Virus record (IMG/VR): IMGVR_UViG_3300025327_000027
Coordinates: 1-64,000 of that record
Strand: one strand, 5' to 3'
DNA length: 64,000 bases
Source of the DNA: a virus
Program-made: the position numbers and the translations under genes
The notes under the pieces: model-generated
Seen by the model: the letters and a program-made list of their open reading frames with translations, nothing else
Database searches by the model: none
What the model was told of the DNA's origin: nothing
Part shown: positions 8,704 through 58,981 of the stretch, piece by piece
How positions within the stretch are numbered: the first letter of the stretch is position 1
How the letters are laid out: every line of letters starts with the position of its first letter

Positions 8704-11700
8704 GTGGTTATGCGCAAGGGACATCGTAAGCCTCTAACTAAAAAAGAAAAAGCCTTCGCGAAATCTTTGGCTAACGGTACTGGCTCGATTAAAGCCGCTA
8801 GATTGTTTTTGAAATGGAAGTGCGGTCATGGCACGCCTGAAGCGCAGAAAGCTAAAGACTTAGCCCGAAGCCCACGTATCCGTGAAGAAGTCGATAGACT
8901 GAAGAACGTTGATAAGGTTGAAGCCGAAGCGGAGATGACAATCGATCAGACTCCAGGCTTCGAGTTGGAAGATTTGCGCAAATTTGCCTATGATCGCCTA
9001 AAGATCATCGCTGAAGACTCAGGTGTCAACCCTTCCGCTCGCTGGAACGCCGTCGAAGCGCTAGAAAAGCTGAATGATCCGAGTAAGGACATCAACCTCA
9101 TTTACCGCTATATTGACATCATGTGGCGCTACTACGAGGGACACTGCCCTGCATGTCACAAGGACTTCCCCCTCTGGAAGATCCAGAACAACAAGCTTGA
9201 GGCGTACCGTGAAGAGAACGGTATCCCACCAAGCTCCCCGATCGAAGATCGATTGGATCGCCGTCTAGCCCTCCTACGAGCGGCTGATCCGGTACGACAG
9301 CCTCACCCTGGACAGGTGCGAGCGATATCGGCCGCCGAGCGTCATCTTGTTGGTACTGGTCCAGCCCGAGGCGGTAAAGCGACGGCTCCTGATACTCCAA
9401 TTTTAACTCCTAAGGGTTTTGTGCGATTTGATTCGTTACGGATTGGCGATACTGTCTTTGATGAAGCAGGACAGCCGTGCCAAGTCATAGGAGAATCCCC
9501 TGTATGGAAGACGGGGGATTGGTATAGAGTCATTTTCGATACAGGTGAGGAGATTATTGCGCATGAGAATCATGAATGGGTAACCCATCAGTATAACTAT
9601 CGGGAGGCAGTAAGGAGTCGAAAAGGAACAGCACGTTACGCTAACCGTAAGCGCAACGTAGTTCCGAATCGAATTATCAACAAGCGAATTCGAGCATTGA
9701 CACCGACCGTGGTTTCTACCAAAGACATCTTTAACACATGTAAGGCTCGTGAAACTCACACTAATCATGCAATTCCAGTAAGTAACGCAATACAATTCCC
9801 TGCTCAAGACTTGCCTATTGATCCTTATTTATTAGGGGTCTGGTTAGGGGACGATACAGCATTGTCTGGCCAAATTACTATCGCCGATCAACCAATATTA
9901 GATAAGTTGCATCGTCTTGGACATACATATAATAAGATTCAAAGTTCTAAATACTGTTATCGCATTCACGGGTTATATGAAAAGCTAGTGACATTTGATC
10001 TGAAATCCAATAAACATATCCCACTAAACTATCTGTACAGTTCTTATGAACAGCGTCTTGAGTTATTACGTGGATTAATGGATACTGATGGTTATATCAA
10101 CAAAAATGGTAACTGTGCGTTTTACAATACGAATAAAAACTTGTGCGATGGCGTAATGTTCCTATTAGCGAGTTTAGGAATCAAACGTTCTGTGGAATCT
10201 AAAGTAGGCACTTTATATGGGGTTAAGCATAAAACGTGCTATATTGTCAAGTTTACCACAACAGTGCCGATCTTCTCGTTAGAGCGAAAAGCGAAGCGAC
10301 TACCTGCGACAGTTAAATCTAATCAACAATATCATTACATTGTTGACGTTAAGAAGACACAACCAGAGCAGGCTCGGTGTATTGAAGTCAATTCACCTAG
10401 TAATCAATATTTAGTAGGCAAATCTCTAATACCGACGCACAATAGCTTCCTGCTGGGTATGTTCTTGCTGATGTACGGCCTCATCCCAGGCGTAGAGAAC
10501 TGGCTGCTTGCGCGCATCTATGAAAACGCCGACAAGGAGTTTCAGTACTATCAGCAGTTCCTCAACGTACTCTTCTACCCTGTAGCCAAGCACATGATGA
10601 CTGTTCAGGTGGACCGCACAGGAGACAGCAGTATCAAGACACGCTGGGGCAACATCACAGAGACCCGATCGGGTAAGGCCAAGGGTTCGATCACAGGTCA
10701 CGAGCTTGAGATCATCGTTGTAGCCGAGCCGGCGTGGGTAGAGGCAAGTCTCTTTGAGGAAGTGCGCGCCCGCATGAGTTCCCGCATGGGACGCATCATC
10801 GCGTTCGGTACGCCTAAGGGCTTCGGTGGCTTCCTGTACCGCATGAAGAAGCTGTCTAACCGTGGCCCGGATGGACACATCCGCAATGCTGAGGAACGCC
10901 TGATTCGCAACGGCTGCCCTTGGAACCAGAGCCTTGCTCAGTTCTCCCTATCACCCGAAGAGAACCCACAGTACGTCATCTCGGAGAAGGAAGCTGCCCG
11001 TGGCGAGCTTACGCGAGAGGAGTACGAATCGGAGTTCGAAGGGAGGATGACATCCGCAGAAGGTGCCCGATTCCCATTGATTCAGGAGCAGCACGTCCAG
11101 TCGCTCAATCCGGGCGTAGTCGAACGCCTGGTGTATGTCCTGGGGATCGACCAGGGACCCAAGAACTTTGGTGGCTGCCTGATCGGTTGGGACGGTCAGC
11201 GCATGTACGTTATATGGGAGTTCTTTGATGACACGGAGAAGACCATCAAGGCTAACATGATGGAGATCAATCGCAACCTTCCTGCGGTCATTGCAGCCAA
11301 GGGGGGCACCGCAGAGAATTGGCAATTGACCATCTTTGACTCAGATCCTCCAATCCATGGCATTCTCCTTGAACTAATAGAGGAGCGAAAGACATGGAAG
11401 ACGGATGAAACGTACCGCCCCAAGAACCTGAAGGATTACACCAACTGGCGTGAAGAGACCATGGAGTGGATCAACTACATGGCTGGCCGTGGCTTCCTCA
11501 TCTTCGACAAGGAGTGCGACCTTTTACATGAACAGTTGCGTGCAGCTCTCATCAAGCCACTTGACAATCAGAAAGAAAGGCAGACAGGCAATGACAAGGG
11601 ATGGCTCGTAAAGGACCCATGGAGAGGTGACCACGTTATGGATGCCTTCCTGATGGCCTGCTTCTGTATAAAGGAAGAGTTGATTCACATGCCGATGGCA

Positions 11701-11895
11701 GGCGTGAATCCAACCGCACCGTTTGAAGCAGAGCGCCTGCATCAAGAGTATCAACGTATTAACCAGGAACGTAGAGAGCTAACAGGTAAAAATGATAACG
11801 AAGCTTGGCGTATTGTGTATGGTCACGAGCGCACCTCACCGGCAAAGTTTTGGTATCCACAGAGCTTCCATGTGGATAATAGTGATGAGGGGTAA
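8704..11895 (+). CDS. terL: Terminase large subunit interrupted by an intein
   Basis: The 1063-codon frame encodes the packaging motor. Residues 1-75 (LTKKEKAFAKSLANGTG... then ARSPRIREEVDRLKN) resemble the small-terminase fold, fused at the N-terminus. The ATPase Walker A (GTGPARGGK then S) is cut by a 355-residue intein (residues 226-580). Walker B reads LEIIVVAEPAW, with Ala where Asp is usual and the catalytic Glu kept. Next come the coupling motif region (IIAFGTPKG) and the RNase-H-like nuclease (VLGIDQGP, FDSDPP, DHVMDAF). The spliced protein would be about 708 residues. The start is GTG 8704 or ATG 8710. Confidence 0.9.
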   Translation: MVMRKGHRKPLTKKEKAFAKSLANGTGSIKAARLFLKWKCGHGTPEAQKAKDLARSPRIREEVDRLKNVDKVEAEAEMTIDQTPGFELEDLRKFAYDRLKIIAEDSGVNPSARWNAVEALEKLNDPSKDINLIYRYIDIMWRYYEGHCPACHKDFPLWKIQNNKLEAYREENGIPPSSPIEDRLDRRLALLRAADPVRQPHPGQVRAISAAERHLVGTGPARGGKATAPDTPILTPKGFVRFDSLRIGDTVFDEAGQPCQVIGESPVWKTGDWYRVIFDTGEEIIAHENHEWVTHQYNYREAVRSRKGTARYANRKRNVVPNRIINKRIRALTPTVVSTKDIFNTCKARETHTNHAIPVSNAIQFPAQDLPIDPYLLGVWLGDDTALSGQITIADQPILDKLHRLGHTYNKIQSSKYCYRIHGLYEKLVTFDLKSNKHIPLNYLYSSYEQRLELLRGLMDTDGYINKNGNCAFYNTNKNLCDGVMFLLASLGIKRSVESKVGTLYGVKHKTCYIVKFTTTVPIFSLERKAKRLPATVKSNQQYHYIVDVKKTQPEQARCIEVNSPSNQYLVGKSLIPTHNSFLLGMFLLMYGLIPGVENWLLARIYENADKEFQYYQQFLNVLFYPVAKHMMTVQVDRTGDSSIKTRWGNITETRSGKAKGSITGHELEIIVVAEPAWVEASLFEEVRARMSSRMGRIIAFGTPKGFGGFLYRMKKLSNRGPDGHIRNAEERLIRNGCPWNQSLAQFSLSPEENPQYVISEKEAARGELTREEYESEFEGRMTSAEGARFPLIQEQHVQSLNPGVVERLVYVLGIDQGPKNFGGCLIGWDGQRMYVIWEFFDDTEKTIKANMMEINRNLPAVIAAKGGTAENWQLTIFDSDPPIHGILLELIEERKTWKTDETYRPKNLKDYTNWREETMEWINYMAGRGFLIFDKECDLLHEQLRAALIKPLDNQKERQTGNDKGWLVKDPWRGDHVMDAFLMACFCIKEELIHMPMAGVNPTAPFEAERLHQEYQRINQERRELTGKNDNEAWRIVYGHERTSPAKFWYPQSFHVDNSDEG
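9379..10443 (+). mobile_element. Class 3-type intein in TerL Walker A
   Basis: This 355-residue intein begins with Ala (ATAPDTPILTPKG), not Cys or Ser, and ends PTHN before Ser. The Trp of ENHEW (block B), the Cys of ARCIEV (block F) and the Thr of PTHN (block G) form the W-C-T triplet of class 3 inteins, in which the block F Cys acts first. A two-motif LAGLIDADG endonuclease is embedded (LGVWLGDDTA and LRGLMDTDGY). Removing it restores the P-loop GPARGGKS exactly. It is AT-rich compared with the exteins and is a relative of the intein at 61368-62537. Confidence 0.9.
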
Positions 11896-12997: not shown

Positions 12998-13525
12998 TTA
13001 TTTCTCCTGTTTTAGATACGCTAGTGCGTACATTAGAATTTCAATAGAATCTTGTAGTTGACCTATACCATTATTACATTGATGACATAATAATCCACGA
13101 ACTGCGTTAGTTTTATGGCAATGGTCCACAACACGAATTGGTCTAGTTTTGCAAATTGCGCAAAAATGCTTTTGTTTTTCTGAGAGTACCTGAAGATTCT
13201 CATCTGTTAAGCCGTAGCGTTTCTTTAAGTGATAAAATTTAGCATAATTAGGATTACGCTGTTGCCACTCTATAGATTGCTCTTGTTCTTGTTTTTTGCG
13301 CTTGAGGTGATTTTCTCTGCTACTCTTGAGTCGTCTCTGTTTTCGATCTTCATCTGACAAACGTCGCGTACCTCCTGTACTCCGCGTTTGGACTCCATTA
13401 CGAAGAAGAAAGTTTCTTACACATCCAGGTGAACATTTGTAAATAAAAGCCAAATCGGCTAAACTTGTCCCGTTCTCATAACCGTCGCGGATTTCGGTTC
13501 TATACGCTTGTAACTTTGATGGCAT
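12998..13525 (-). CDS. Endonuclease VII-type homing endonuclease
   Basis: This 175-residue protein has an N-terminal helix-turn-helix-like segment (SLADLAFIYKCSPGCVRNFL, about residues 21-40) for DNA recognition. After a basic linker comes the recombination endonuclease VII core: CAICK, VVDHCHKT, RGLLCHQCNNGIG. The cysteines bind zinc, and the D-H-x-H motif binds the catalytic metal. AT-rich codons and insertion between two minus-strand genes mark it as a mobile gene. It has its own promoter at 13534-13563 and only a poor ribosome site. Confidence 0.88.
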   Translation of the reverse strand: MPSKLQAYRTEIRDGYENGTSLADLAFIYKCSPGCVRNFLLRNGVQTRSTGGTRRLSDEDRKQRRLKSSRENHLKRKKQEQEQSIEWQQRNPNYAKFYHLKKRYGLTDENLQVLSEKQKHFCAICKTRPIRVVDHCHKTNAVRGLLCHQCNNGIGQLQDSIEILMYALAYLKQEK

Positions 13526-20931: not shown

Positions 20932-21294
20932 TTGTTCAACAAGAAAAATGATACAATTGAATTTGCAAAATTAGAAGTAAAATGTCAATTTTTAGAACAA
21001 GAAAATGAAAAACTAAATAAACAAGTCGAGAAGCTGCAAGAAGCTTTAATCGCAAGCACGGCCCCGAAAGCGTTTGACGCGATGCAGAGAGACAAATCTC
21101 TTCCCGACACGAAGGAAGAGATGGAAGCGCGAATGAAAATGCTTAAGGAGCACGCCTACGTTGCATCTTATCTTGAAGAGATGGAAAAACCTAGCTTCGA
21201 CGGCGTGGATGAAATGACGAATTGGCTGTCATCTGGTTATGCCAAAACTTCAATGGCTGATACTCCGATTGATGAAGGTAATAAAGAAAGTTAA
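20932..21294 (+). CDS. Coiled-coil protein upstream of portal
   Basis: This 120-residue protein starts at TTG 20932, immediately after the endonuclease stop; no clear ribosome site exists, and the true start may have been displaced by the insertion. A strong coiled coil (LEQENEKLNKQVEKLQEAL) is followed by an acidic tail. It overlaps the portal start by one base. It may be a portal or scaffold accessory factor. Confidence 0.6.
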   Translation: MFNKKNDTIEFAKLEVKCQFLEQENEKLNKQVEKLQEALIASTAPKAFDAMQRDKSLPDTKEEMEARMKMLKEHAYVASYLEEMEKPSFDGVDEMTNWLSSGYAKTSMADTPIDEGNKES

Positions 21295-24200
21295 TGGCTG
21301 CTTCGACCCCATTTCAGCAAAGAGTCTCTAATGGACAGCTAACGTCCTTGGATAACCTGCCCCACATGGACCCCGCTATTGGTACAGCTATTGCATCTTA
21401 TTCAAATTCAATCAATTCGAACAGACAGAGCTACCGTTGGCTACAGGCTCTCGTGTGGATCGAGAATATCCTCTTCGGCCTAGGTCGGCAGTGGAACTCA
21501 GACATCTTGCACAGCCGCCTGTCTCGCAACACCGACACAGGCGATCTGGCTGTCATTTCCAACGTCTCAAAGAAGATTCCTCAACCGACCAACGATTTCG
21601 TGGGTCGCTACGTTGAGACCAACATCTCTCTCCTTACGGAGAACCGTCCACAGCCCCGCATCACTGCAAAGTCAGATGCGCGTGACGACAAGCAAAAGGC
21701 AGAGCTTTCTCAGCTTGTACTGGACTACCTATGGGAAGAGCACAATCTTCCAGAGAAACATCGTGAAGCGGCCCGCTTGATCCTTTACTGCGGAATCGCT
21801 TTTATGGAGATTTGCTACGATCCAACCGAGATCCGGCACCTTGCTGTCCAGCAGACTGAGACTGAGCAGACAACTGCTATTCCCGGTCCTGATGGTCAAC
21901 CCATCATGCTACCCGTACCTCGCCAAGTTCCAGTGATCGATCCTAAGACTGGCGCGCCCAAGATAATTGGCGAGCTTGAGTACGGCGATATCGCATGCAA
22001 GCTTGTGGGCCCATTCGAACTTCACTTCCCACAAGTTCACTCGTGGGATGATATCGATTGGGTCATGAAGGAAGCGTTTCTTCCAACACAGACCCTAAAG
22101 GACCGATTACAGGCGGAAGGACTGAAGAAGGTTTGCGTAAAGAAGAACGGTTGGGATCTTGAGGTTCTCAAAAGCCTTGGTGCATTCAACGTACAGACAC
22201 TTCCCCTTTGGTGGTGGGAGCGCCTGACTACGGCTATTGAAGGGCCTGGCCCGAACATCTACGTAGGTAATCCTGAGCTATGGGACGACCACGCAGTGAT
22301 GCGCACATTTGATCGCAAGCCGTGCCCAATGTGGCCAAACGGTCGTACGATCATCACGGTCAACGATCGAGTGCTCTACGATTCCCCCAAGGACGTAGGT
22401 GCGCGTGCGTATGATCCACGCTGGCCACATCGTTGGCACCCATATGTTCGCTTCCGTTGGGAAGCCCAATGTGGATCGATCCTTGGTCGTTCATTGGTAA
22501 GCAAGTTGCTTCCCAAGATCAAGCGCATCAACGCAATCGATACCGCTCTCATCATGTGGCGTAGAACTGTGCCAATGGCAGCTTGGGTCCTCCCGAAAGG
22601 GTCGAGCCCAATCGAGGATATACAGACTGGCCGTGCAGGCGTATTCTTCGAGTACGATCCTCGCAAGACCATGGGTGCTGCACCGCAACCGGTACCTCCA
22701 ACGCCATTCCCTGCCGCATGTCTTGAAGAGCGAGAGTTCTGCAAATCTGAAATGGAAGCTATGGCGGGGACTGAGGAGGTACTTCGTGGTCAGCGCCCTG
22801 AAGGTGTGAATTGTTGGACAGAAGAAGGTGAACTAACTAATTCAAATGGTGTACCTGTTTTAGTTAAGGACATAAAAGTTGGTGATGAACATATCGCACT
22901 AACCGGTCCTGGTCCTATTGGAGCTTGCCATAAAAATTACTATAATGGTAATATGAAAACCATTAATTCTTACGGAAATTTACCTGTAACTGTAACAGAA
23001 AACCACAAATTTCCTGTTCTTGTTGGAACAAAAATCATACAGAAAAAAGCATCAGAACTTAAAATTAAGGATTTACTATTAGCGGGTTATTTTAGGTATA
23101 GAGATGGAATTGAAAAACTTGATATTAATGCCTATATAACTGGACCGGAGAAAATAGGAGGAGAAAAGCACGGTAGAACAACTATTACCAATAATCAAGC
23201 AAATGAAATTAGAAGTAAATTAAGTAACGGAGAATTAGGCCAAAATTTAGCTAAAGAATATAAAATTAGCATAGCTGCTATCTCCAGAATTAAAAACAAT
23301 AAGTCTTTTAAATTAAATCCTAAAACTAAACAAGTCCCATTTAAGCCTATTATAGATTTGAATGAAGATGTTTTATGGTTATTTGGAATGTATCTAGCGA
23401 AAGGCATGGTCGCATATGCAAAGAAAGAAAACAAAGTAACAGAAGTCAGATGGACTTTACATACTAAAGAAAAAAACTTAGCTGACAAACTTGTTTGTAT
23501 ATTAAAAAATGATTTTGGATTAAAATCTACTATTCGATACAGAAAAACAGCAAAGGCTATGGATGTTTGTGTATCTAATAGGATGTTTGCTAGATTAATG
23601 TTATCCCTCTTTAATACAGGCGCATTAATTAAGCATATTCATCCGGATCTTTTCCGTACTATAAAATCTTTATTACCTCTAGTAGCAGGTTGGTTTGACG
23701 GTGACGGTAGCAAAGACGGTAATACTTTAAAAGGAAGCACTATATCTAAGAATATTGCATCTCAAATGAGAAGTATTTTACTCGATGAAAAAATTTATTG
23801 TACAATTAATAAAGTAAAAACTCAAAATAATAGAATTGCAAGATATCCTCAGTATTGTCTACGGACTAGTGCTAGCGATGCTGATCATTTGATTCAATAC
23901 AGCAATCGATTTATAGGTTCTGATTTTAAATGTGCATCTAATAATCAAGGTCGTCGTGGTTTTTGGTTTGGTAATTTTTATGCTTCGTATGTCTGTCAAA
24001 TTAATGATATGCAATATGATGGTTATATTTACAATGTAACTATGGATGAAAGGGTAAAAGAAGGTAAAAATACGGGCCAAATCGATGCAATTGATTCGCA
24101 TAACTCCGTGAATTCATTCGGGTTATTTACCTTCCAGAGCGCAATAATGCTAGACGTTCTCCGCAAGCAGGCCCTTAGCTCACGATCTGCCATCCTCCAA

Positions 24201-24824
24201 GCTTGGGACGAGAGTCTCCAAGTTGAGGGTAGCAGCTTGCTCATGGAAGTCATCAAGCACGTCAAGAACGATCCTCGTTACCTTGAGCGCCTGAAGATCC
24301 TAAGCCGAGAGAAGGCAAGCCGATTCACAATCGACAGCTTTTCTGGTGCAGACCTTTCAGACAACGTAATTGTCAAGGTGGATACTGCATCCCAGGCAAT
24401 GGGCTCCCGCGAAGCAAAGCAGGCCCGAGCAATCGAAATCATGCAGTACGCACCTGGTCTCATCCAACTTCCGATCACACTGCAAGAGAAGCTTGTTGAG
24501 GATCTCGGTTGGCCAGACACGATGCAACCAAAGGGCCAGGACATCATCCGCGCAAAGAACATCCTCAGCTACATTAAGAACAACCGGTTCGACCTGGCTG
24601 TTCCATTCCCTGAGGACGATCCTTACGTCATCCACGATCTCCTTGTTGAGGAGCTTAAGGGTGATAGCTTCGTGGATCTCCCACTGGAGCAGCAGAAGAA
24701 GATCATCGAACTCATCGAAGAGTACCAGCGCGAGATCGAGCGCGTCGAGAGGGCGCAATTGAAGATGCAAGCCGAGATGGCTGCAATGCAAGCCGAGATG
24801 GCTGCCCCTCCTGAGGGTAGCTAG
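21294..24824 (+). CDS. Portal protein interrupted by an intein
   Basis: This 1176-codon frame encodes the portal, the dodecameric DNA gate at the head vertex. Flanking sequences (SLLTENRPQPRITAKSD near residue 110, GTEEVLRGQRPEGVN near 500, SAIMLDVLRKQALSSR after the intein) fit portals of podovirus-like phages, whose GV(N)S region precedes a long helix. The 442-residue intein is at residues 507-948. The spliced protein is about 734 residues. The C-terminus is a Met/Gln/Glu-rich helix (KMQAEMAAMQAEMAA). It overlaps the gene upstream by one base. Confidence 0.85.
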   Translation: MAASTPFQQRVSNGQLTSLDNLPHMDPAIGTAIASYSNSINSNRQSYRWLQALVWIENILFGLGRQWNSDILHSRLSRNTDTGDLAVISNVSKKIPQPTNDFVGRYVETNISLLTENRPQPRITAKSDARDDKQKAELSQLVLDYLWEEHNLPEKHREAARLILYCGIAFMEICYDPTEIRHLAVQQTETEQTTAIPGPDGQPIMLPVPRQVPVIDPKTGAPKIIGELEYGDIACKLVGPFELHFPQVHSWDDIDWVMKEAFLPTQTLKDRLQAEGLKKVCVKKNGWDLEVLKSLGAFNVQTLPLWWWERLTTAIEGPGPNIYVGNPELWDDHAVMRTFDRKPCPMWPNGRTIITVNDRVLYDSPKDVGARAYDPRWPHRWHPYVRFRWEAQCGSILGRSLVSKLLPKIKRINAIDTALIMWRRTVPMAAWVLPKGSSPIEDIQTGRAGVFFEYDPRKTMGAAPQPVPPTPFPAACLEEREFCKSEMEAMAGTEEVLRGQRPEGVNCWTEEGELTNSNGVPVLVKDIKVGDEHIALTGPGPIGACHKNYYNGNMKTINSYGNLPVTVTENHKFPVLVGTKIIQKKASELKIKDLLLAGYFRYRDGIEKLDINAYITGPEKIGGEKHGRTTITNNQANEIRSKLSNGELGQNLAKEYKISIAAISRIKNNKSFKLNPKTKQVPFKPIIDLNEDVLWLFGMYLAKGMVAYAKKENKVTEVRWTLHTKEKNLADKLVCILKNDFGLKSTIRYRKTAKAMDVCVSNRMFARLMLSLFNTGALIKHIHPDLFRTIKSLLPLVAGWFDGDGSKDGNTLKGSTISKNIASQMRSILLDEKIYCTINKVKTQNNRIARYPQYCLRTSASDADHLIQYSNRFIGSDFKCASNNQGRRGFWFGNFYASYVCQINDMQYDGYIYNVTMDERVKEGKNTGQIDAIDSHNSVNSFGLFTFQSAIMLDVLRKQALSSRSAILQAWDESLQVEGSSLLMEVIKHVKNDPRYLERLKILSREKASRFTIDSFSGADLSDNVIVKVDTASQAMGSREAKQARAIEIMQYAPGLIQLPITLQEKLVEDLGWPDTMQPKGQDIIRAKNILSYIKNNRFDLAVPFPEDDPYVIHDLLVEELKGDSFVDLPLEQQKKIIELIEEYQREIERVERAQLKMQAEMAAMQAEMAAPPEGS
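22812..24137 (+). mobile_element. Intein in portal, Cys1 to Gln-terminal
   Basis: This 442-residue intein starts CWTEEGELTNSNG and most likely ends SFGLFTFQ before Ser. The HN in DSHNSVNSF looks like the block F 'HN', and cutting after Gln restores GVN-SAIML. Terminal Gln instead of Asn, and Phe at the penultimate site, are unusual. An internal helix-turn-helix (GELGQNLAKEYKISIAAISR) and LAGLIDADG motifs (FGMYLAKGM and VAGWFDGDGS) are present. Motif 1 has Lys where the catalytic acid belongs. It is very AT-rich. Confidence 0.85.
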
Positions 24825-25661: not shown

Positions 25662-26690
25662 GTGCATTTCGTCCCAGTAGTAGATAAAGAGCAAAAACCT
25701 CTCATGCCCACCACGGCTAATCGTGCAGCCACTTGGATAAAGTCAGGCAAGGCTACTCCCTTTTGGAAGCGGGGTATTTTCTGTGTCCGCCTCAACCAAG
25801 AGCCTTCCGCTCGCCAACGCCAGGAAATAGCCGTAGGCATCGACCCTGGTAGCAAAAAAGAGGGCTTCACCGCGAAGTCCGAAAGCCACACCTACCTCAA
25901 CCTGCAAGCCGATGCCGTCACTTGGGTAAAGGCTGCGGTAGAAACTCGTAGGAATCTGCGGCGCGCCCGCCGCAATCGGAACACTCCTTGCCGCAAACCC
26001 CGTTTCAACCGCGCCAGGGGAGGACTATCTCCCAGCACCAAAGCCCGTTGGCAATGGAAACTTCGTCTCTGTAAATGGCTGTCCCAAATGTATCCTATCA
26101 CGCAGTTCGTGGTGGAAGACATTTGTGCCAGAACCAAGAAAGGACAGCGACGGTGGAATGTTTCTTTCGGCCCCTTGGAAGTAGGTAAGCATTGGTTCGA
26201 GGGAGAACTCAAGAAGTTAGCGCCTGTGCTTTTGGTTCCGGGCTACGAAACTTTCGAAATGCGACGCGCAGCAGGACTCAAGAAGAGCAAGCAAAAAATG
26301 TCCGAAGTCTTTGCCGCGCACTGTGTAGATTCCTGGGTTCTCGCCAACCATTGGACAGGAGGGCACATCAAGCCGGATAGCGAACAGATGCTTCTGATAA
26401 CGCCCTTGCGCTTTCACCGCCGCCAACTCCACGTTCAGAACTTCAAAGACGGTAAGAGAAAACTCTACGGTGGAACCAGAAGTCAAGGTTTCAAAAGAGG
26501 TTCCCTGGTAAAGCACCCAAAGTATGGGCTTTGCTACATCGGGGGAACCCAAAAATCCAGAGTTAGCCTGCATAGTCTTCAGGACGGCAAGAGGCTGGGC
26601 CTCAATGCCAAGCCAGAGGACATTCAGTTCCTAACTCACAACACCTGGAGGCTGCGAGCACCACTCTCGGTTTCCGTCGCAGAAGAATAG
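25662..26690 (+). CDS. isrB: IsrB-like RNA-guided RuvC nuclease (no HNH)
   Basis: This 342-residue protein starts at GTG 25662 behind AAAGGAG. The PLMP domain is at the N-terminus (KPLMPTTANRAATW, residues 12-25). RuvC-I is VGIDPGSKKEG (Asp61), and the Arg-rich bridge helix of the RRXRR family is RRNLRRARRNR (97-107). RuvC-II is FVVEDICA (Glu152), and RuvC-III is AAHCVDSWVLA (His220, Asp223). A C-terminal region of about 100 residues resembles the target-adjacent-motif-recognising part of IscB (RRQLH, GFKRGSLV). No HNH domain lies between RuvC-II and III, and the length fits IsrB rather than IscB (about 400-500). Expected role: omega-RNA-guided nicking, here probably serving as a homing element. 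Confidence 0.85.
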   Translation: MHFVPVVDKEQKPLMPTTANRAATWIKSGKATPFWKRGIFCVRLNQEPSARQRQEIAVGIDPGSKKEGFTAKSESHTYLNLQADAVTWVKAAVETRRNLRRARRNRNTPCRKPRFNRARGGLSPSTKARWQWKLRLCKWLSQMYPITQFVVEDICARTKKGQRRWNVSFGPLEVGKHWFEGELKKLAPVLLVPGYETFEMRRAAGLKKSKQKMSEVFAAHCVDSWVLANHWTGGHIKPDSEQMLLITPLRFHRRQLHVQNFKDGKRKLYGGTRSQGFKRGSLVKHPKYGLCYIGGTQKSRVSLHSLQDGKRLGLNAKPEDIQFLTHNTWRLRAPLSVSVAEE

Positions 26691-43702: not shown

Positions 43703-44704
43703 ATGGCAGGTAATGTTGGCCGATACCAGATTGGTCGCCCCCTACAGGACGTACGATTACGTAACTGGCCGGCAGGCAAAGTCGCCCAACTGAAGCGGGC
43801 TGTTGAGTTGATGGAAAACGAACTCAACAGTACGATGGCCTCACAGGTTGACCAGGGACAGGCAAGAGTACTCTCACCTAAGGTTCCCGTAGTCACAGGT
43901 CTGACCATTCGCGCTGGATTCAAGAACTTCCTCATCACGTACAATGCAGCCAAGGGTATCCAGGATTTGCTGTTCTACGAGATCCAGAAGGACGCTACCC
44001 CTAAGTTCGCGAACCCAACCACGTTCACGATCCCGCAGACTACGCTGACCATTCCGACAACTACAGAGCACGAGACGGTCTATTTCCGAGTCCGGGTCAT
44101 CAACTCTAAGTTCCAAGTAGGACGATGGTCAAAGACTGCCACTGCCACTGGTAGCAGCAACTTCCGTATCTCCGTAGTACGTCAAGCAAAGCAGGCTGTG
44201 CCTTTGACTTGGGCTACCCGAGACAACTGGTTCAACATGGCTTTCGCTACATATTCGCCAACCGCCGCAAGCATGTGCCTCCACATTCACGCGGGCGTTT
44301 GGACGAAGTGTACTGCCGTAAAGACTCCAACTACAATGGCGGCCACGACGCAATACATAGTAACGAATACCAACGAAGTGAACTTCCGAATCCTACGTAA
44401 TGGGGTTGAAATGACCAACGTTGGTACTATGAACGTTCAAGGTTCAGCTTCATATCTCCTTCGTGCTGAAGAGGAAGATACTCAGTATCAGCAGGAACGA
44501 GAAGAGCAGACTGACGTTCACACAATCATTACTCCATTCGAAACCTTCGTAGGCAACGAAGCATCAGTCGTCTATACGCTACAGGCCATGCTAGTAGGTT
44601 CAGGTAGCAGCCGAACAGCGAGCGGCAACGGCGTTGTAACCCTAGACGAAGCAACAGTCGTGATCGATTGTTTCGATGTTGTTGAGATTGTGCAGAGCTT
44701 CTAA
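43703..44704 (+). CDS. FnIII-like virion protein 1
   Basis: This 333-residue protein has an N-terminal helix (KVAQLKRAVELMENELNS), then an FnIII-like domain (about 75-155: ITYNAAKG, YFRVRVINSKFQVGRWS). The C-terminal half is beta-rich. It is similar in plan to the next two genes (helix, then FnIII). It is probably a tail-associated or surface protein. ATG 43703 has no strong ribosome site; a TAGCTAAAATA stretch (about 43679) may be a weak promoter. Confidence 0.65.
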   Translation: MAGNVGRYQIGRPLQDVRLRNWPAGKVAQLKRAVELMENELNSTMASQVDQGQARVLSPKVPVVTGLTIRAGFKNFLITYNAAKGIQDLLFYEIQKDATPKFANPTTFTIPQTTLTIPTTTEHETVYFRVRVINSKFQVGRWSKTATATGSSNFRISVVRQAKQAVPLTWATRDNWFNMAFATYSPTAASMCLHIHAGVWTKCTAVKTPTTMAATTQYIVTNTNEVNFRILRNGVEMTNVGTMNVQGSASYLLRAEEEDTQYQQEREEQTDVHTIITPFETFVGNEASVVYTLQAMLVGSGSSRTASGNGVVTLDEATVVIDCFDVVEIVQSF

Positions 44705-46104
44705 TGTCAACATCAAGTGATCCAAAGATTCCACTACGGGGCATTGCTGCCCTGTTCGATCATCTTGATCCTGGTGTCAAAGCCAAGCTAGCCTCAGCCT
44801 TCGGTGAAGCCGAAGACTTGATGGACTTCCACGCTCTGTCAACGATCGACAAGCAGGATAGACGTAAACTATCTGGATTGATTGCCTCTCCTGTACTTAC
44901 GACTGCAACGAACAACCGGGGCTTCGACGTTTCTTGGCGACGCTTAGATGATCGACGCATTTCATCCTACGAAGTCCAAGTATCGTTCTCAAGCAACTTC
45001 TCTAACCCGGACTCCTACAATATCGTCGATACCTCGCTGTCTCTAGAGGGCATCGGCACTACTGTATACGTGCGCGTACGTGGAGTGCGTTTCAATGGCG
45101 ACTGCGGTCCTTGGTCAGACACAGCCACGATCGACGCTTTTGCGACATCAGCCGGTCCTGTAGTCTACACCCGAGGCTTGAACGACATCCCTGCGTTCTA
45201 CATTGATGGCTCAGTCCTCTCGGCACCTGGACCTATTCAACATCTTGACGTTACCCCTCAGCGAATCAACGGTGGCATTCTCGTATTTGGTTCTTGCAAC
45301 AAAACAGCAACAGTTCGCCTGAATGGTTCGCTGGTTACCAACTCCAATGGTGGAGGTTTCGGTCCAGTCTTCCTCACTCACGGCTCGTTCAACTTCTCAA
45401 AGGCAGATAACGTATTCCCTAGTGCCGTAGTCAATGCGGGAGCAGGTATCGGCACCTTCACTGGCTGGTCCAACTTGCTCAACGCTGCCGGAACAATGGA
45501 AACAGATTACTCTAACGTTGGTCTAGCTAGCACCGATTACTTCCAAGAGGGTCTCGTACCTGGACAGTCTCTTGCAACCCGATTCCTACGATTGTCAAAC
45601 TTCGGTCTAGCCGTTCCAGGAGGTAACACTATTGTAGGTATCGCAGTCACTTTCACTGGTGGATGGTTTGGTGGTGACGTTACAAAGTCTATTCCTTCTT
45701 TGCGCGCACTACAACTGATTGATGGTGGCACTCCTCGTACCTTCTCACAAACAACTGACTTCCCATGGCCAGGTACGGGCACATTCAACTATACATCACC
45801 ACCAGCATCGGGGGCGATTCCATTCGTTACCTTCGGGGGTGTCAACGATCTATGGGGCGAAGTAGCGGGCTTCTGGACGCCTGCCAAGGTCAACGCTGCT
45901 AACTTCGGCGTACAAGTCCAAGGTCGAGTTCGTCGAAAGTTCAATGACGTCGCAGGCGATCAGCGAATTTGGATGTACGGTATGACTACAGTTGTCTACT
46001 CAATCAGTCCTAATTTCGTTGCGCATATTAACGTATTCACAGAGGGTCCCCTTTTGAACCTTACTTTGAACGTGATCGAATTTGGAGAGGAACTAGTACT
46101 TTAA
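44704..46104 (+). CDS. FnIII-like virion protein 2
   Basis: This 466-residue protein has an N-terminal helix, then an FnIII-like domain at about 58-145 (GFDVSWRRLDDRRISSYEVQ, TVYVRVRGVRFNGDCGPWS), followed by a long beta-rich region. It overlaps both neighbouring genes by one base. Shared plan with the genes on either side suggests duplication and divergence. The role is likely virion surface or tail. Confidence 0.65.
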   Translation: MSTSSDPKIPLRGIAALFDHLDPGVKAKLASAFGEAEDLMDFHALSTIDKQDRRKLSGLIASPVLTTATNNRGFDVSWRRLDDRRISSYEVQVSFSSNFSNPDSYNIVDTSLSLEGIGTTVYVRVRGVRFNGDCGPWSDTATIDAFATSAGPVVYTRGLNDIPAFYIDGSVLSAPGPIQHLDVTPQRINGGILVFGSCNKTATVRLNGSLVTNSNGGGFGPVFLTHGSFNFSKADNVFPSAVVNAGAGIGTFTGWSNLLNAAGTMETDYSNVGLASTDYFQEGLVPGQSLATRFLRLSNFGLAVPGGNTIVGIAVTFTGGWFGGDVTKSIPSLRALQLIDGGTPRTFSQTTDFPWPGTGTFNYTSPPASGAIPFVTFGGVNDLWGEVAGFWTPAKVNAANFGVQVQGRVRRKFNDVAGDQRIWMYGMTTVVYSISPNFVAHINVFTEGPLLNLTLNVIEFGEELVL

Positions 46105-46844
46105 TGGACTCGGTAGTCCCGCGTAACAGTATTCCCTCGATGGCCGCAAAGATGCAGTCTCTTCGAGTTGACGACAAGGCCGAAAAGGCTTTGCTGGTAC
46201 GCATTGGTACGCTAATCGATACCATCGTCGAAGCTCAACGTGGTTCAGCTAACGCCCCCGGCAGCATCCCACGTAAGGCCAACGTTAACAACCTAAAGAA
46301 GCCTAAGCCTCTAACAGGCGCATCGGAAAACATCTTCAATGGCGCTTCGGTCTCGATCGATGCTAGCTCTTCGGCTGTAAATCTCAGCCACTACGAAGCA
46401 CAGATCGATAGCAACTCGAACTTCAACGCTCCTACAACCAAGGAAGTCTTTACAACAGGCACGACTTTCAAGGGTTTGGCTACATCCACGCAGTATCACA
46501 TTCGCATCCGACCTGTCACCAAGAACGGCCAGGTAGGTGAATGGGCTATTCTGGATTCCGTACTAACAACGGGTCAGACGGAAGGTGCGGATTTCGACGG
46601 AGACAATCTAGGCTCGGTTGTACTGAGCAAAGCGTTCACCTTCAGTAGCAGCACCCAGGACATCTTCTGTGCGGCTGCGGTAGGGGCAATTGACATCGAT
46701 GCAACCCATCCCCCTACAGGTACCAGTGTTGAACACAATCACGTTGCTCTGGATACCGAAGTGGACATCATCGATCGACGAATCGGCGTAACTACGGTAG
46801 CTATCGAGGGTATCACCCTCGAAGGTATAGCTCTACGACTGTAG
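46104..46844 (+). CDS. FnIII-like virion protein 3, ends at amber
   Basis: This 246-residue protein has an N-terminal helix, then an FnIII-like domain (LSHYEAQIDSNSNF, YHIRIRPVTKNGQVGEW) and a beta-rich tail ending GITLEGIALRL. The stop is TAG (46842-46844). The same frame continues without interruption for 64 more codons of plausible beta-rich protein to TAA 47037-47039. The full product may thus be 246 or, with readthrough, about 311 residues. Confidence 0.65.
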   Translation: MDSVVPRNSIPSMAAKMQSLRVDDKAEKALLVRIGTLIDTIVEAQRGSANAPGSIPRKANVNNLKKPKPLTGASENIFNGASVSIDASSSAVNLSHYEAQIDSNSNFNAPTTKEVFTTGTTFKGLATSTQYHIRIRPVTKNGQVGEWAILDSVLTTGQTEGADFDGDNLGSVVLSKAFTFSSSTQDIFCAAAVGAIDIDATHPPTGTSVEHNHVALDTEVDIIDRRIGVTTVAIEGITLEGIALRL

Positions 46845-47039
46845 GTCCCAATCACAGGCGGAGGCTCGTCTTTTTCAGATATGCGTCTAACCCGAGCCAA
46901 CCCGATTATCTTTTTCAACCTCATGCAAGCGGAGACGGGTGTCACCTTCCCGGTGAACTACTCCTTCGACGTACAAATCAGCATTGCTGGCGGTAGTTTC
47001 GTCAACAGCGTCAAAGACGCAGTGTGGGTGCAGTTCTAA
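46845..47039 (+). other. In-frame extension beyond the amber codon
   Basis: It begins VPITGGGSSFSDMRLTRANP directly after TAG and ends DAVWVQF before TAA. Composition is like that of the coding sequence upstream. An ATG at 46881 could start a separate 52-residue product, but no ribosome site precedes it. Either readthrough occurs or a recent nonsense mutation truncates the gene. Confidence 0.6.
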
Positions 47040-47056
47040 AGGCAACCATCTATACC

Positions 47057-47070
47057 GATAAGGTAAAATA
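47057..47070 (+). promoter_or_regulatory. Candidate phage promoter (GATAAGGTAAAATA)
   Basis: A close variant of the recurring element, 30 bases before ATG 47101, at the start of the large internal-protein operon. Confidence 0.55.
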
Positions 47071-47100
47071 AAGTAGAATCAACCTTTTCAAAGGAGTATT

Positions 47101-48294
47101 ATGGGTGACGGACCATCCGACGCCAATGCCATGCTGCGGTTGAGCAACATTGCCAGCCAGCAGCCAAACGAAATTCGAGAACGACGTACAGCAGCCGAAG
47201 ATACGCTAGCGGGCATCACCGCCGATCTTGGCAAGCCCGGCACGTACAGTCTACCTGCGTCCCAAGATCCAAACGCACCCAGCGCTGCCCCAACGTCGCC
47301 GACTGCGGATGCGCCAGACGACTTGTTAACACGAGACAACGTAACCTTCAACCGCAAGGAAGATACAAAGAGGTACGACAAGCTGCTCAAGAAGGGTTAC
47401 TCTAAGGATCAGGCTATTGGCATGATCCCTGGTGCCGTTGATAACACTCAGGACAGCATCTTCACAAAGCAAACTACAAAGGCTGAAGGTGCAGGCACAG
47501 GCTTCGGTGCAGTTGGAAAGACTACCAAGTTAGATCCCAACAAGGCTAAGGCCAAGCTAGAAAGCAGCAGCATGTTCCGTCAGGTTAGTCTAATGACGGC
47601 TGAGTCGGAACAGCTGTTGAATCGTACAGGTCCACTGTACGATGAAATGATGAAGAGCACTCAGCTACCGATCATCGAAGGTGCCGCAGCAGCCGCTCGT
47701 GAGAACACTGAGAATCTTCGCCAGGCTATGGCTCGTGGGGGTGCTGCGCGAACAGCAGCTTTCGCAGCCGTACAGAAGATCCGTGCTCAAAATCAGATCA
47801 ACGTACAAAAGGGTCAGGCCCTCGCGCAGGCGCACTTGAACCTAGATATGTGGGCACGAGACAATGCCAAGAACGTAATCAACTTCGCTACCAATTGGGC
47901 ACAGAACCAAGCAGGTATTCGCGAGTCGTATCAGAAAGCAATGGACCACGCATCTGACCTGATGTCTGAGAGCGCCCTGCCTTTCATGTTCGCAACCCAG
48001 CAGAAGAGCTTCGAGTACCGACAGATGCACTCAGCAGAGCGCCGAAGCAAAGTTACCAAGTGGGTAAACTTCACCCTTGGTATCGCAGCAGCCGTTGCAA
48101 CGTACGGTAAGAACACCGGTCTACTTGAGCAGGCCAACTCTCAAATCGCTGGCAACAGGGTCGGCTCTTCAGCCTTTGCTGGATCTGATCCAAATGCTCC
48201 AACCAGTGCTCTTGGCACCGCAGATTCAGGCCAGGGAGGTCTATTAACTTCTGACCTCAAAGGCACAAGCGCCTCTTCACTATTCGGACTATAA
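47101..48294 (+). CDS. Internal virion / ejection-type protein 1
   Basis: This 397-residue protein (GGAG upstream) has a disordered N-terminal 150 residues, then long Ala/Gln-rich helices (EGAAAAARENTENLRQAMA, FAAVQKIRAQNQINVQKG) and a short hydrophobic stretch (FTLGIAAAVATYG). Three large genes in a row after the tail genes recall the ejection proteins of podoviruses. Inferred role: DNA delivery channel. Confidence 0.6.
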   Translation: MGDGPSDANAMLRLSNIASQQPNEIRERRTAAEDTLAGITADLGKPGTYSLPASQDPNAPSAAPTSPTADAPDDLLTRDNVTFNRKEDTKRYDKLLKKGYSKDQAIGMIPGAVDNTQDSIFTKQTTKAEGAGTGFGAVGKTTKLDPNKAKAKLESSSMFRQVSLMTAESEQLLNRTGPLYDEMMKSTQLPIIEGAAAAARENTENLRQAMARGGAARTAAFAAVQKIRAQNQINVQKGQALAQAHLNLDMWARDNAKNVINFATNWAQNQAGIRESYQKAMDHASDLMSESALPFMFATQQKSFEYRQMHSAERRSKVTKWVNFTLGIAAAVATYGKNTGLLEQANSQIAGNRVGSSAFAGSDPNAPTSALGTADSGQGGLLTSDLKGTSASSLFGL

Positions 48295-48297
48295 TCC

Positions 48298-49854
48298 ATG
48301 CCTAGTGGCTTTTACGACGCAAAGAATGTTCCCGACTACGGTGTAGGCGAGATGGGTCAAAACATCCAGAAGGTTACCGCTGCAATCGGCGGCATCTTCC
48401 AGGAGCGGTACCAACAGAAGCAGTACCAAGACTTCATTGATGGTCCACAGAAGGACTACGAAGCCAAGCTACACCAGGTGCAGGACCTTCTACTAGATGA
48501 GACCAACCCTGAAGGTCCGTCACAGGGCATCAAGATGATGTCTGGTGCACTGTCTACCTACATGGACGAAGCCGGTCGCTACAAGAACAACCCGCTCATC
48601 TCTGGTCGCGCACAAGCTGCGTTTCAGGGTAACAACTACATGCTTCATCAGATCTTCACATCGAAGATGAATGAAGCCAAGATCGCATATGGCGAAGCTA
48701 CGACAAAGCGCATGAACGTATCGAGCGCTGCGACTGTACAGGAGACTCAGGCACGAACTGGTCTCATCAACGAGCAAACTGCACAACTCAAGGCCGGCAG
48801 GATAGGTGTCACACCAAGCGGCCGGCTGGGCAAGGCATCTAGTGCCAAGGGTGGCCCCCAGTTCCTCACTGGTGGTCCGGGCATGATCGATCCGAACGCT
48901 CCTGCCGATACGCAGCTTGACCAAGCATACGCCTCAGCTTCCGCCAACCTGACCAACCCTGGGAACAAGGCTCAGCAAGATCAGCGTGCTGCTGAAATGA
49001 ACGGCATTCGCAAGAGCCTCGCACAGCAGGATGTCATTGCCCGAGCTGCGCGTGGCGAGCAGCGTGACATCTACGACATACAGTCCGACACTACAAAGCA
49101 GGAAGCATGGGACCCAACCAACGAGAAGCACATCAGCGAAGCTGAAGCTCTGGTCGATCCTGAGGATGTCAAGAACCGCTACATCTACACCAAGATGCGC
49201 GAAGAGCAGCCTCTCACAATGCCTGGCGTAACGCCGGAGATGATCGACCAGAAGTACGGTTGGATGAAGGACCCTGATCTTGCAAATCCAAACGCACCTG
49301 TAACACGCGAGATGTCTGAAATCAACGTTGGCAAAGTTCTCCTTGGACAGGACGGTTGGAACGTCCTGACTGATCAGAAGACAAAAAAGGCACCTCTGGA
49401 CCTTACAGATGCAGCTAAGAACCTACCCAACGATTTCACCCAGCTACAAGGCCCACTACGCCGAGGTATGGATGCAGCCGTAGGTTCGATGGTTACAGGT
49501 ACCGTGATGCCAAAGACCGCAGATGAAGTGAAGGCTCTCATCAAGGCATCGCTCAAGGCCGTCGCTGGTCAGTACATCGGTGGTGGTCATCCGAATGACA
49601 AAGTACACCCCGGTGTTCTCAAGAGCCGTTATGCAGCAGCTAAGTTTGTCGATGCTATAGCCGACAAGTACAGCGAGAGCATCGCCGAGCGGCTTGGCTT
49701 GAATCAGGGTAAGGCAAAGGCAGAGGAGCCAAAGAGCGGCTTCAATCTTCCAACAAAGCTTCTTCGCGAGTACACCCCACTCGGCGACCTAGAAGACATT
49801 CTCGGCGGTGCAGCCGAAGTAGGTAAGAGCCTACTAGGTAAATTGCAAGAATAA
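48298..49854 (+). CDS. Internal virion / ejection-type protein 2
   Basis: This 518-residue protein is helical and rich in Gln, Lys and Ala, with no signal or membrane segment. Residues 60-150 and 220-260 look like long helices. It follows the previous gene by three bases and precedes the very large protein gene by three. The role is inferred from its neighbours. Confidence 0.6.
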   Translation: MPSGFYDAKNVPDYGVGEMGQNIQKVTAAIGGIFQERYQQKQYQDFIDGPQKDYEAKLHQVQDLLLDETNPEGPSQGIKMMSGALSTYMDEAGRYKNNPLISGRAQAAFQGNNYMLHQIFTSKMNEAKIAYGEATTKRMNVSSAATVQETQARTGLINEQTAQLKAGRIGVTPSGRLGKASSAKGGPQFLTGGPGMIDPNAPADTQLDQAYASASANLTNPGNKAQQDQRAAEMNGIRKSLAQQDVIARAARGEQRDIYDIQSDTTKQEAWDPTNEKHISEAEALVDPEDVKNRYIYTKMREEQPLTMPGVTPEMIDQKYGWMKDPDLANPNAPVTREMSEINVGKVLLGQDGWNVLTDQKTKKAPLDLTDAAKNLPNDFTQLQGPLRRGMDAAVGSMVTGTVMPKTADEVKALIKASLKAVAGQYIGGGHPNDKVHPGVLKSRYAAAKFVDAIADKYSESIAERLGLNQGKAKAEEPKSGFNLPTKLLREYTPLGDLEDILGGAAEVGKSLLGKLQE

Positions 49855-49857
49855 TCA

Positions 49858-52800
49858 ATGGCTGAGCCGTTAGAACCAGGTCTATTGCAGCCATCGGCTC
49901 CCGCTGATAGTCTACTAGCCCCAGCAGAAGAAGCACTCTCTTCTCGCATGGCCACCATGACCGATTCTGTTATCGGCCGCGTCCACGAAGCGCTTGGCCT
50001 GACCTACCCTTCAGCCGTGGACCCTATGCAGCAGATCCCTGATACAGACTTCGATGACCAGGCTCGAAAAGTAACGGAGAACTTCAAGGGTCAAGAGGCA
50101 AAGCGTGCTGCGACATTCCACGCAGACGTTGTGCCGCCTCCTGATCCGGATTCAGGTGTTGATACGCTTGCTATCACACGCAACGCTGTCAATTTCATGT
50201 TCCATGACCCGATGGCCCTTGCAGGCGTTACGTGGGACACGGAGCACGTCAATTGGTCCCTTGCAACGATCCGAGACATGGTTGCAGATCACCCGTACCG
50301 AGCCGGCCTTGCAGCCGCAGGTACACTCGCCCCGCTGGCTGCCGGTGGCTACCGCCTGATGAAGGCCGGTGCCATTGCAGACATTGCCGTGGATGACCTC
50401 ATGTTAGCCGGCCTGGTCGATGATACTGCCAGCTACAGCAAGCTGACGGCCCAAGGCAAAAAGCTTATTCAGGGTCAGGCTCAGCAGGTCGGCAAGCTCA
50501 AGGCACTGCGAAGCGCAGTAGCCGATGGATCTGCCTCTGCATCTGATCGTGCGCAGTTAAACTTCTACGAGGCATTCGGCAACACCTACCTAGATGCTCA
50601 TACTAATGCCGAATTGAATCCGGCTGGAACAATCTCGCAGTGGCAGGAGAAGGCCAAGACATTAACAAGTGGCAAGGCCGTCAATGACATGATGGAGATG
50701 GCCAGCAACGTCAAACCGGACGAGGGAACCAAGGTTCTCCATGCCCTAAAAGACCCCGCCAGACTCTCAGATTTGAGCCCAGGCGCACGGGAATTCACTC
50801 TGGCATTCGGAGCCGAGGGTAGAGCCGAACAAGCGGCTATGCTCGATTCTGGCTTCATCGATGAGGAGACTGCTAAAAAGGTTGGTGACATCTGGTTCTC
50901 GACTCTTCGTAAAGACTCGCTACTGTTCAACGAAGGTGCAGCTACCAATCGTCTGAGTCTGGTCCGTCGCATTAGCACCGAGAGCGCAGCGGATAAGGGT
51001 AGGCTCCAGGTCATCAATATCCCTCGAACATCTAGCCCCCACCTGCTATCCCGCTCCCTGGACGAGGAAGGGGTTACCAGCCTCATCAAGCGCCAGCGTG
51101 CGAGTGAACACCTGCTGAAGGGAAAGAGTGATGCAGCCCTGAAGCTACTCGACCACCCTGACGACGCCGAAGCGGTCAATCTCATCAAGAGCGGCCGTGC
51201 TGATGAGGCAGCCAAGAAACTCGAAGAGATGAGTGGCGGCTTCATTGAAAGCGACCCACAGGAACTCGTGGCGCGCAGTCTTCTACAACAGAAGCTACTT
51301 CACCTGAACTACAAGACCCTACGTGATGTGGCAATGAACCCTGCCATCACGAAGACGCGCGAAGAGTACGAGGCTATGTCTCCTTCGATTCGCAAGTTCA
51401 TGGTTCCCCTGGATCGCATGGAGAACTCAAGCGTCTTACGGCGTATGGTTGCCAAGTCCCAGGGCAAGGCCACAGTGGAGGAACTCGGATACGTACACTC
51501 GAACCTATTCAACGAGCTTGGCGGCATGATCAAGAAGGAGGCAGCCAGCGGTGCAGTCGATTGGCTGAAGGCCCTGACTGCTATTCACAAGACTTCGAAA
51601 TGTGTAATTGCAGGTACTCGTATACTTACAAATAAAGGTTATTTAAAAATAGAAGAAGCATTTGAATTTAAAGACGGTTATCACTTTAATTTACCAGAAG
51701 AGACTCCTCTGGTTTGGTCTCCAGTACTAAATACTTGGGTGAAAGTAAATGCTTCTTATTTTTCTAAAAACGAACAAGTGTTTAAAGTATCGTTAAAAGA
51801 TGGAACAGAAATAATTGGGACATCAGATCATCCATTACTCTCTCGTGGTGTTCCCGTTAAAATTAAAGATTTAAATGTAGGACAAGAAATTGATTATGCA
51901 TTAGGCGGCGAATTTCCAATTCAATATCAAACAATTAATTTTCATCCATTTACTAAAACATTTGAAAAGTCTGGTGGCAGTAGTATCATATTTAATGAGG
52001 CTTTGGCTGAATTAATTGGTTGGGTTCTTGGAGACGGCAATGTTAGATCCAATGTAAAAGACAATCAATATATTAACATAACAATAGGAAATGAAGATAA
52101 AGATTATTCTTTATCAAGATTAGATTGCCTATGTAAAGAACTAAATATAACCTATAAAATAAGTCAAGATAATCGTAATAAAGTTCATTACTTTAAAATT
52201 CATAATACATTTTTAGTTAAGTTATTTAAACATATAGGTGCCATATATCAGGATAAAAGTAAAGAATTAAAAGTTCCAGATATTGTATTTAAATCCCCTA
52301 AAACTGTAATCACTGCATTTTTGCGCGGATTATTTGATACAGATGGACATGTAACTAAAAAAGGAGGAGGTAACTTAACCAGCATCAGTAAACCTCTATT
52401 AAAAGATGTTAAGATACTATTAGGCTGGCTGGGGATTCGAAGCGCATATAGCAAATCTGATGATGCAAAAACTGTTGTTATTTGTGGAAAAATTTGCAGT
52501 GCAAAAGAGCATTTTAGACTAAGATTTAGTAGTTTAAAATCTCGTTGTATATCAAATAATCTACAATTATTTGGTATGCCACGAAAAGCACATAGAATCC
52601 AAGATTCAATCAAAATTAGAAAAAAGAATAGAGATATTTACAAAAATAGAATTTCTTCTATTACATCATTTGGTCAAATGGATGTTTATGATATTTGTTT
52701 AGATGCACCCCATATCTTCATTGGAGACAATATTCCACAACATAATACGGCCCTCAACCCTTATTCACATGGACAAAATGTGATGGGTAACGGTGTGTTC

Positions 52801-58581: not shown

Positions 58582-58981
58582 CAAAAAATTTCTCTGCTTG
58601 ATGTTGAGAACCAAATTTTAACGTTATTCGCCATTCTTTATTCTGTTTATCCCACGTTATCCCTGGATATGGACTTTGAAACTCTGCTCTGTTCCTACGG
58701 TTTTTCGTATTCACTGACTTCGTAACCCACCTACAATTTTCCGGTTCATAATTACCATCATTATTAATTCGATCCAATTGAAGTCCGGGTTGCCAAGCAG
58801 AAAACATATCGTCTCTGAAGTTCTCAAACCGCATCCAACGATCACAAACTTTGATGCCTCGGCCACCATAATACTTGTAGTCAGAACATTTAGGATTGGA
58901 ACAACGAGTCTTCATGCTATGCCATGCAGTATAAATCGGGTGCGGTTTGGGTCCAGTTCTGAATCCATGTTTATAAGACAC
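58553..58981 (-). CDS. HNH/AP2-type homing endonuclease
   Basis: This 142-residue protein has YYGGRGIKVCDRWMRFENF, LQLDRINNDGNYEPENCRW and an AP2-like end (YPGITWDKQNKEWRITLKF). It overlaps the large glycosyltransferase gene by 11 bases and the following glycosyltransferase gene by about 30. It is AT-rich. It is the free-standing counterpart of the endonuclease fused at 55559-56770. Confidence 0.86.
   Translation of the reverse strand: MSYKHGFRTGPKPHPIYTAWHSMKTRCSNPKCSDYKYYGGRGIKVCDRWMRFENFRDDMFSAWQPGLQLDRINNDGNYEPENCRWVTKSVNTKNRRNRAEFQSPYPGITWDKQNKEWRITLKFGSQHQAEKFFDERKLLELF

Follow-up and report, generated by a model that had tools for sequence, protein, structure and literature searches.

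A full-length class 3 intein, probably with an active homing endonuclease, in the Walker A loop of a phage large terminase

Introduction

How does a phage package its DNA when the ATP-binding loop of its terminase is encoded in two halves? The question is raised by the large terminase (TerL) gene of IMG/VR record IMGVR_UViG_3300025327_000027, analysed here over a stretch of 64,000 nucleotides (the window), in which an in-frame insert separates the last two residues of the Walker A loop. A preliminary description had read the insert as a class 3 intein on whose splicing packaging depends. We describe its sequence, position, residue conservation and predicted fold together with the empty site in relatives, and consider it very likely indeed that it is a full-length class 3 intein, probably with an active LAGLIDADG homing endonuclease, that splices, restores the loop and can home.

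Results

Position and boundaries of the insert

The large-terminase ORF (8704-11895, + strand) begins with GTG and is open throughout its 1063 residues. The insert occupies residues 226-580 in frame and divides the gene into three parts:

8704-9378 (+): N-extein of the large terminase, 225 aa, ending ...GPARGGK, from the ORF
9379-10443 (+): class 3 intein with LAGLIDADG homing endonuclease, 355 aa, from sequence, alignment and fold
10444-11895 (+): C-extein of the large terminase, starting with the +1 Ser (the Walker A Ser) and comprising the remaining ATPase and the RNase H-like nuclease (PHROG terminase large subunit, E 3e-14; alignment with intein-free TerLs)

The junctions read ...GTGPARGGK^ATAPDTPILT...ARCIEVNSPSNQYLVGKSLIPTHN^SFLLGMF, the insertion falling between Lys and Ser of GPARGGK^S; when joined, the exteins read GPARGGKS, a regular Walker A loop. 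This position, between the Walker A Lys and Ser/Thr of TerL, is that of the TerL1-a group of inteins. The boundaries given in the preliminary description are borne out to the base by the ORF, the junctions and the residues, and its reading of an interrupted GGK-S loop agrees with the intein-free TerLs of Microbacterium phage Huwbert (GRRWGKSLFGG) and Curtobacterium phage Shrew (GRRWGKSMFGG), in which Walker A is continuous at the insertion point. The intein has a lower G+C content (40%) than the exteins (52-53%), also at third codon positions (35% versus 52-65%), in keeping with an origin elsewhere.

The TerL extein is very divergent, its best phage matches sharing 23-29% identity. Its Walker B motif reads VVAE instead of DE; decay of the terminase, which this might suggest, was rejected because the intein-free Huwbert and Shrew proteins are alike in this respect (LLAE). 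The first ~130 TerL residues (8704-9090, +) resemble the helical domain of TerS, with a weak match to the PHROG terminase small subunit (E 0.03), which suggests a TerS-TerL fusion at the N-terminus. Near the terminase gene, 12998-13525 (-) encodes a protein with a helix-turn-helix and an endonuclease VII (HNH) domain, a candidate free-standing homing-type nuclease. The annotated TerL of Pelagibacter phage HTVC026P (L091 2360-3481) is without a Walker A loop and begins MKYASKPNQKIWYVAP; the start may be wrongly placed or the gene truncated.

Neither viral nor genome contigs yielded a close relative of the phage when scanned with the TerL C-extein, the portal N-extein and the spliced TerL, and the portal had no match among 50,697 phage records. 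Part of the genome (window 43858-51909) is covered by one near-identical contig, IMGVR_UViG_3300025313_000465 (L093, 99.75%).

Class 3 residues and their conservation

The intein begins with Ala, not with Cys, Ser or Thr, and carries the WCT triplet of class 3 (Trp67 at B:12, Cys334 at F:4, Thr353 at G:5) along with the block B His65, a terminal Asn355 and Ser at +1, where class 3 inteins have Ser, Thr or Cys:

9379-9381 (+): intein residue 1, Ala, without an N-terminal nucleophile
9571-9579 (+): block B His65 (9571-9573)-x-Trp67 (9577-9579; W of WCT), from the alignment
10378-10380 (+): block F Cys334 (C of WCT), the predicted initiating nucleophile, present in 75/75 relatives and aligned with the Cys of 6bs8/6rix
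10435-10443 (+): block G Thr353-His354-Asn355 (T of WCT and terminal Asn; Thr353 10435-10437, Asn355 10441-10443)
10444-10446 (+): +1 Ser of the C-extein

Viral contigs scanned with an alignment of five sequences yielded at least 587 relatives, and the 80 best were retained; the alignment set comprises 75 sequences with clean boundaries, chosen by similarity to the TerL intein and including both class 3 inteins of the window. His65, Trp67, Cys334, Thr353 and Asn355 are invariant in all 75, and at 59 of 71 scored IMG/VR loci, with exteins not all confirmed as terminase, the insert directly follows Gly-Lys. Ala stands at position 1 in 40 of the 75, and Leu, Met, Gln or Gly in most of the others; this residue is thus hardly constrained except to be a non-nucleophile. 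The single Cys at this position (L061) probably reflects a shifted boundary. By sequence alone the TerL intein matches solved class 3 DnaB inteins (E 1e-12 to 1e-10, with 6bs8 and 6rix the best), and these matches together with the five invariant residues argue that the class 3 assignment is not due to chance. The initial Ala and the Trp/Cys/Thr triplet of the preliminary description are therefore confirmed. Alignment, fold and solved relatives all bear out the class and the Walker A site that it proposed, and they favour the block F Cys, which it located in ARCIEV, as the predicted initiating nucleophile.

Predicted fold and homing endonuclease

In the AlphaFold model of the intein (built from 65 sequences; mean pLDDT 93.6) the splicing domain adopts the HINT fold. 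Foldseek matched PI-SceI over the whole intein (E 5e-20), revealing a PI-SceI-like layout, and matched the splicing domain to the class 3 DnaB inteins 6riy, 6rix and 6bs8 (target TM 0.80-0.85). The catalytic residues of the solved class 3 inteins line up with His65, Trp67, the Cys and the Thr (PMC7664689, PMC6195587). The endonuclease has two LAGLIDADG motifs, each with its catalytic Asp:

9850-9852 (+): catalytic Asp158 of the first motif, LLGVWLGDD, kept in 73/75
10087-10089 (+): catalytic Asp237 of the second motif, LRGLMDTDG, kept in 74/75 (Pfam LAGLIDADG_3, E 4.5e-9)

With both catalytic Asp residues intact, the TerL intein is probably still a homing element, likely to invade TerL genes that lack it.

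The intein departs from its relatives at block B position 62 (His, mostly Asp elsewhere) and in its N-terminal motif (ATAPDT, where ALALDT is common). These deviations (positions 2-4 and 62), and the coverage of the TerL gene by one metagenomic contig only, could be taken as signs that the class 3 intein has decayed and lost splicing or homing, leaving the gene inactive or the insert fixed. However, the catalytic residues, both LAGLIDADG Asp residues and the reading frame are all intact, the predicted fold is of high confidence, and the exteins retain recognisable motor and nuclease motifs that a dead TerL would be expected to lose, making degradation very improbable.

Proposed splicing mechanism and dependence of packaging

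The class 3 pathway (PMC6195587, PMC7664689) was used as the model for this intein, and it is from class 3 precedents that we infer how it splices, that it homes and that packaging requires splicing. The TerL precursor would fold, with Trp67 in the core, and His65 and Thr353 would activate Cys334 for attack on the Lys-Ala1 bond, giving a block F branched thioester. Transfer of the N-extein to Ser+1 and cyclisation of Asn355 would follow, and religation to GPARGGKS would restore the ATP-binding loop. The excised intein would then cut intein-less terminase genes at the conserved site and thereby spread. Ser+1 would double as the splicing nucleophile and as the Mg2+ ligand of the mature P-loop, as in DnaBi1 (PMC6195587), an experimentally characterised class 3 P-loop intein with Ser+1 whose block F Cys is required for splicing.

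Because the insert parts the P-loop Lys from the Mg2+-binding Ser, it is reasonable to expect that packaging needs TerL splicing. Another P-loop intein, that of RadA, disrupts ATPase activity and the same was assumed for DnaBi1, with the caution that precursors may keep partial activity (PMC6195587).

The intein might instead act as a regulator, redox conditions restraining splicing so that packaging starts only when conditions suit. DnaBi1 is inhibited in this way by a Cys48-Cys118 disulphide (PMC6195587). That paper terms Cys48 non-conserved; in the class 3 alignment position 48 is most often Cys (36/65 sequences). The DnaBi1-type lock was sought in the TerL intein and the partner Cys was missing, position 48 being Trp; selfish persistence is moreover enough as an explanation, and we regard a regulatory role as very unlikely. 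The glycosyltransferase intein described below has Cys at position 48, so DnaBi1-like redox control, if present in the phage, would be expected there.

Five inteins in one phage

The complete record (67,313 bases) holds five inteins, about one per 13 kb, two of class 3 and three of class 1. The four besides the TerL intein, which the preliminary description does not mention, are listed here with the second class 3 host gene:

58971-63371 (-): glycosyltransferase gene (family-2 and further GT domains), split by the second class 3 intein
61368-62537 (-): second class 3 intein, 390 aa (Met1, GHSW, TRCLG, TSN^Thr), at NFAEE^TDLW of the GT2 domain
22812-24104 (+): class 1 intein, 431 aa (Cys1 ... 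SHN^Ser), in the portal ORF 21294-24824
51601-52746 (+): class 1 intein, 382 aa (Cys1 ... QHN^Thr), in a 1524-aa ORF, 49858-54432, a probable virion protein
genome 64713-65831 (-): class 1 intein in the GMP reductase/IMPDH gene, in the loop GIGPG^SACTTR, just outside the window

Two of these four further inteins interrupt an identifiable conserved or catalytic motif (GT2 NFAEE^TDLW, IMPDH GPG^SACTTR), and all five inteins of the phage have LAGLIDADG_3 matches, that of the GMP reductase/IMPDH intein being below the cut-off. The glycosyltransferase intein keeps all the WCT residues, with the penultimate His replaced by Ser. A literature search found no inteins in IMPDH/GMP reductase, and the table of variable phage genes in PMC7468147 lists none in glycosyltransferases. 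The near-identical contig IMGVR_UViG_3300025313_000465 stops 308 bases into the intein of the virion protein; the assembly may have broken there because intein-plus and intein-minus alleles coexist. Shortly downstream of the portal gene, 25662-26690 (+) encodes a relative of IscB/IsrB, an RRXRR-domain protein of 342 aa; it matches Pfam RRXRR at E 2.7e-35 and, below the cut-off, NCBIfam IscB at E 1.6e-28 in its first 150 residues.

That both class 3 inteins occur in the same genome, give the best within-genome BLAST match (E 6e-64) and occupy neighbouring places in the tree (80/87) would fit a recent jump within the phage. Nevertheless, they share only 38% identity, which does not exceed that to other TerL inteins, the highest identity of the TerL intein is to another contig (41%), and the fENko-Kae01 intein is placed between the two with weak support. 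Tested by the tree, a recent jump from TerL to the glycosyltransferase is thus unsupported, the two inteins not being robustly sisters, and we consider it very unlikely.

Discussion

The intein load of this phage is high per kilobase, since the other intein-rich phages have larger genomes: phage ET08, of 155 kb, has at least five reported inteins (PMC3029335), and the crAss-like zeta phages, of 145-192 kb, have up to three, introns and inteins together having been called unprecedented there (PMC7886860). The count itself is not unheard of. There is a slim chance that all five intein-bearing proteins (terminase, portal, probable virion protein, sugar transferase and GMP reductase/IMPDH) stay inactive until spliced, two by the class 3 and three by the class 1 route, in which case host conditions that affect splicing would strike head filling and assembly together. 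With inteins of both classes in one small genome, among them a class 3 insert in a glycosyltransferase, the phage offers a useful test case for how much splicing load is tolerable and for whether packaging is delayed by it.

Taken alone, the TerL intein is one divergent addition to a large known group, with 33-38% identity to known members. Its best whole-length fold match, PI-SceI (the yeast VMA intein), likewise joins a splicing domain to a LAGLIDADG endonuclease but is a class 1 intein (Cys1) of ~16% identity. The class 3 inteins M. smegmatis DnaBi1 and M. chimaera DnaB1 (6bs8, 6rix) share its fold and catalytic residues, and for DnaBi1 a P-loop site with Ser+1 is stated as well; they are, however, mini-inteins without an endonuclease in a bacterial helicase, and the Cys48 redox partner of DnaBi1 is absent from the TerL intein of the window. 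A class 3 intein in a PD-(D/E)XK nuclease-like protein of human gut phage MT835539 (L098 2081-4024; VDHK^GLP...THN^TNEK) looks like a further case of a host outside P-loop proteins.

Class 3 inteins occupy the same TerL bond in Klebsiella phage fENko-Kae01, Mycobacterium phage Marshmallow and contig L008. The insertion place is shared by dozens of IMG/VR inteins. The fENko-Kae01 terminase intein is of the same class at the same site (38% identity), but it belongs to a 360-kb phage with a different TerL and has Thr at +1; inteins in the Rak2 and K64-1 terminases are mentioned in PMC5259590. The TerL1-a inteins of mycobacteriophages lie between the invariant Lys and Thr of the P-loop (Kelley et al., 2016, PMC5050341). 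Marshmallow gp9, compared here, has in common with the TerL intein of the window the Walker A Lys^Ser/Thr site, Ala1, H-x-W, the block F Cys, THN and a LAGLIDADG endonuclease, while the inteins are only ~33% identical, the exteins can hardly be aligned and the +1 residue is Thr where the window TerL has Ser. Splicing has been shown for other TerL inteins, and DNA cleavage for two of these (Kelley et al., PMC5050341).
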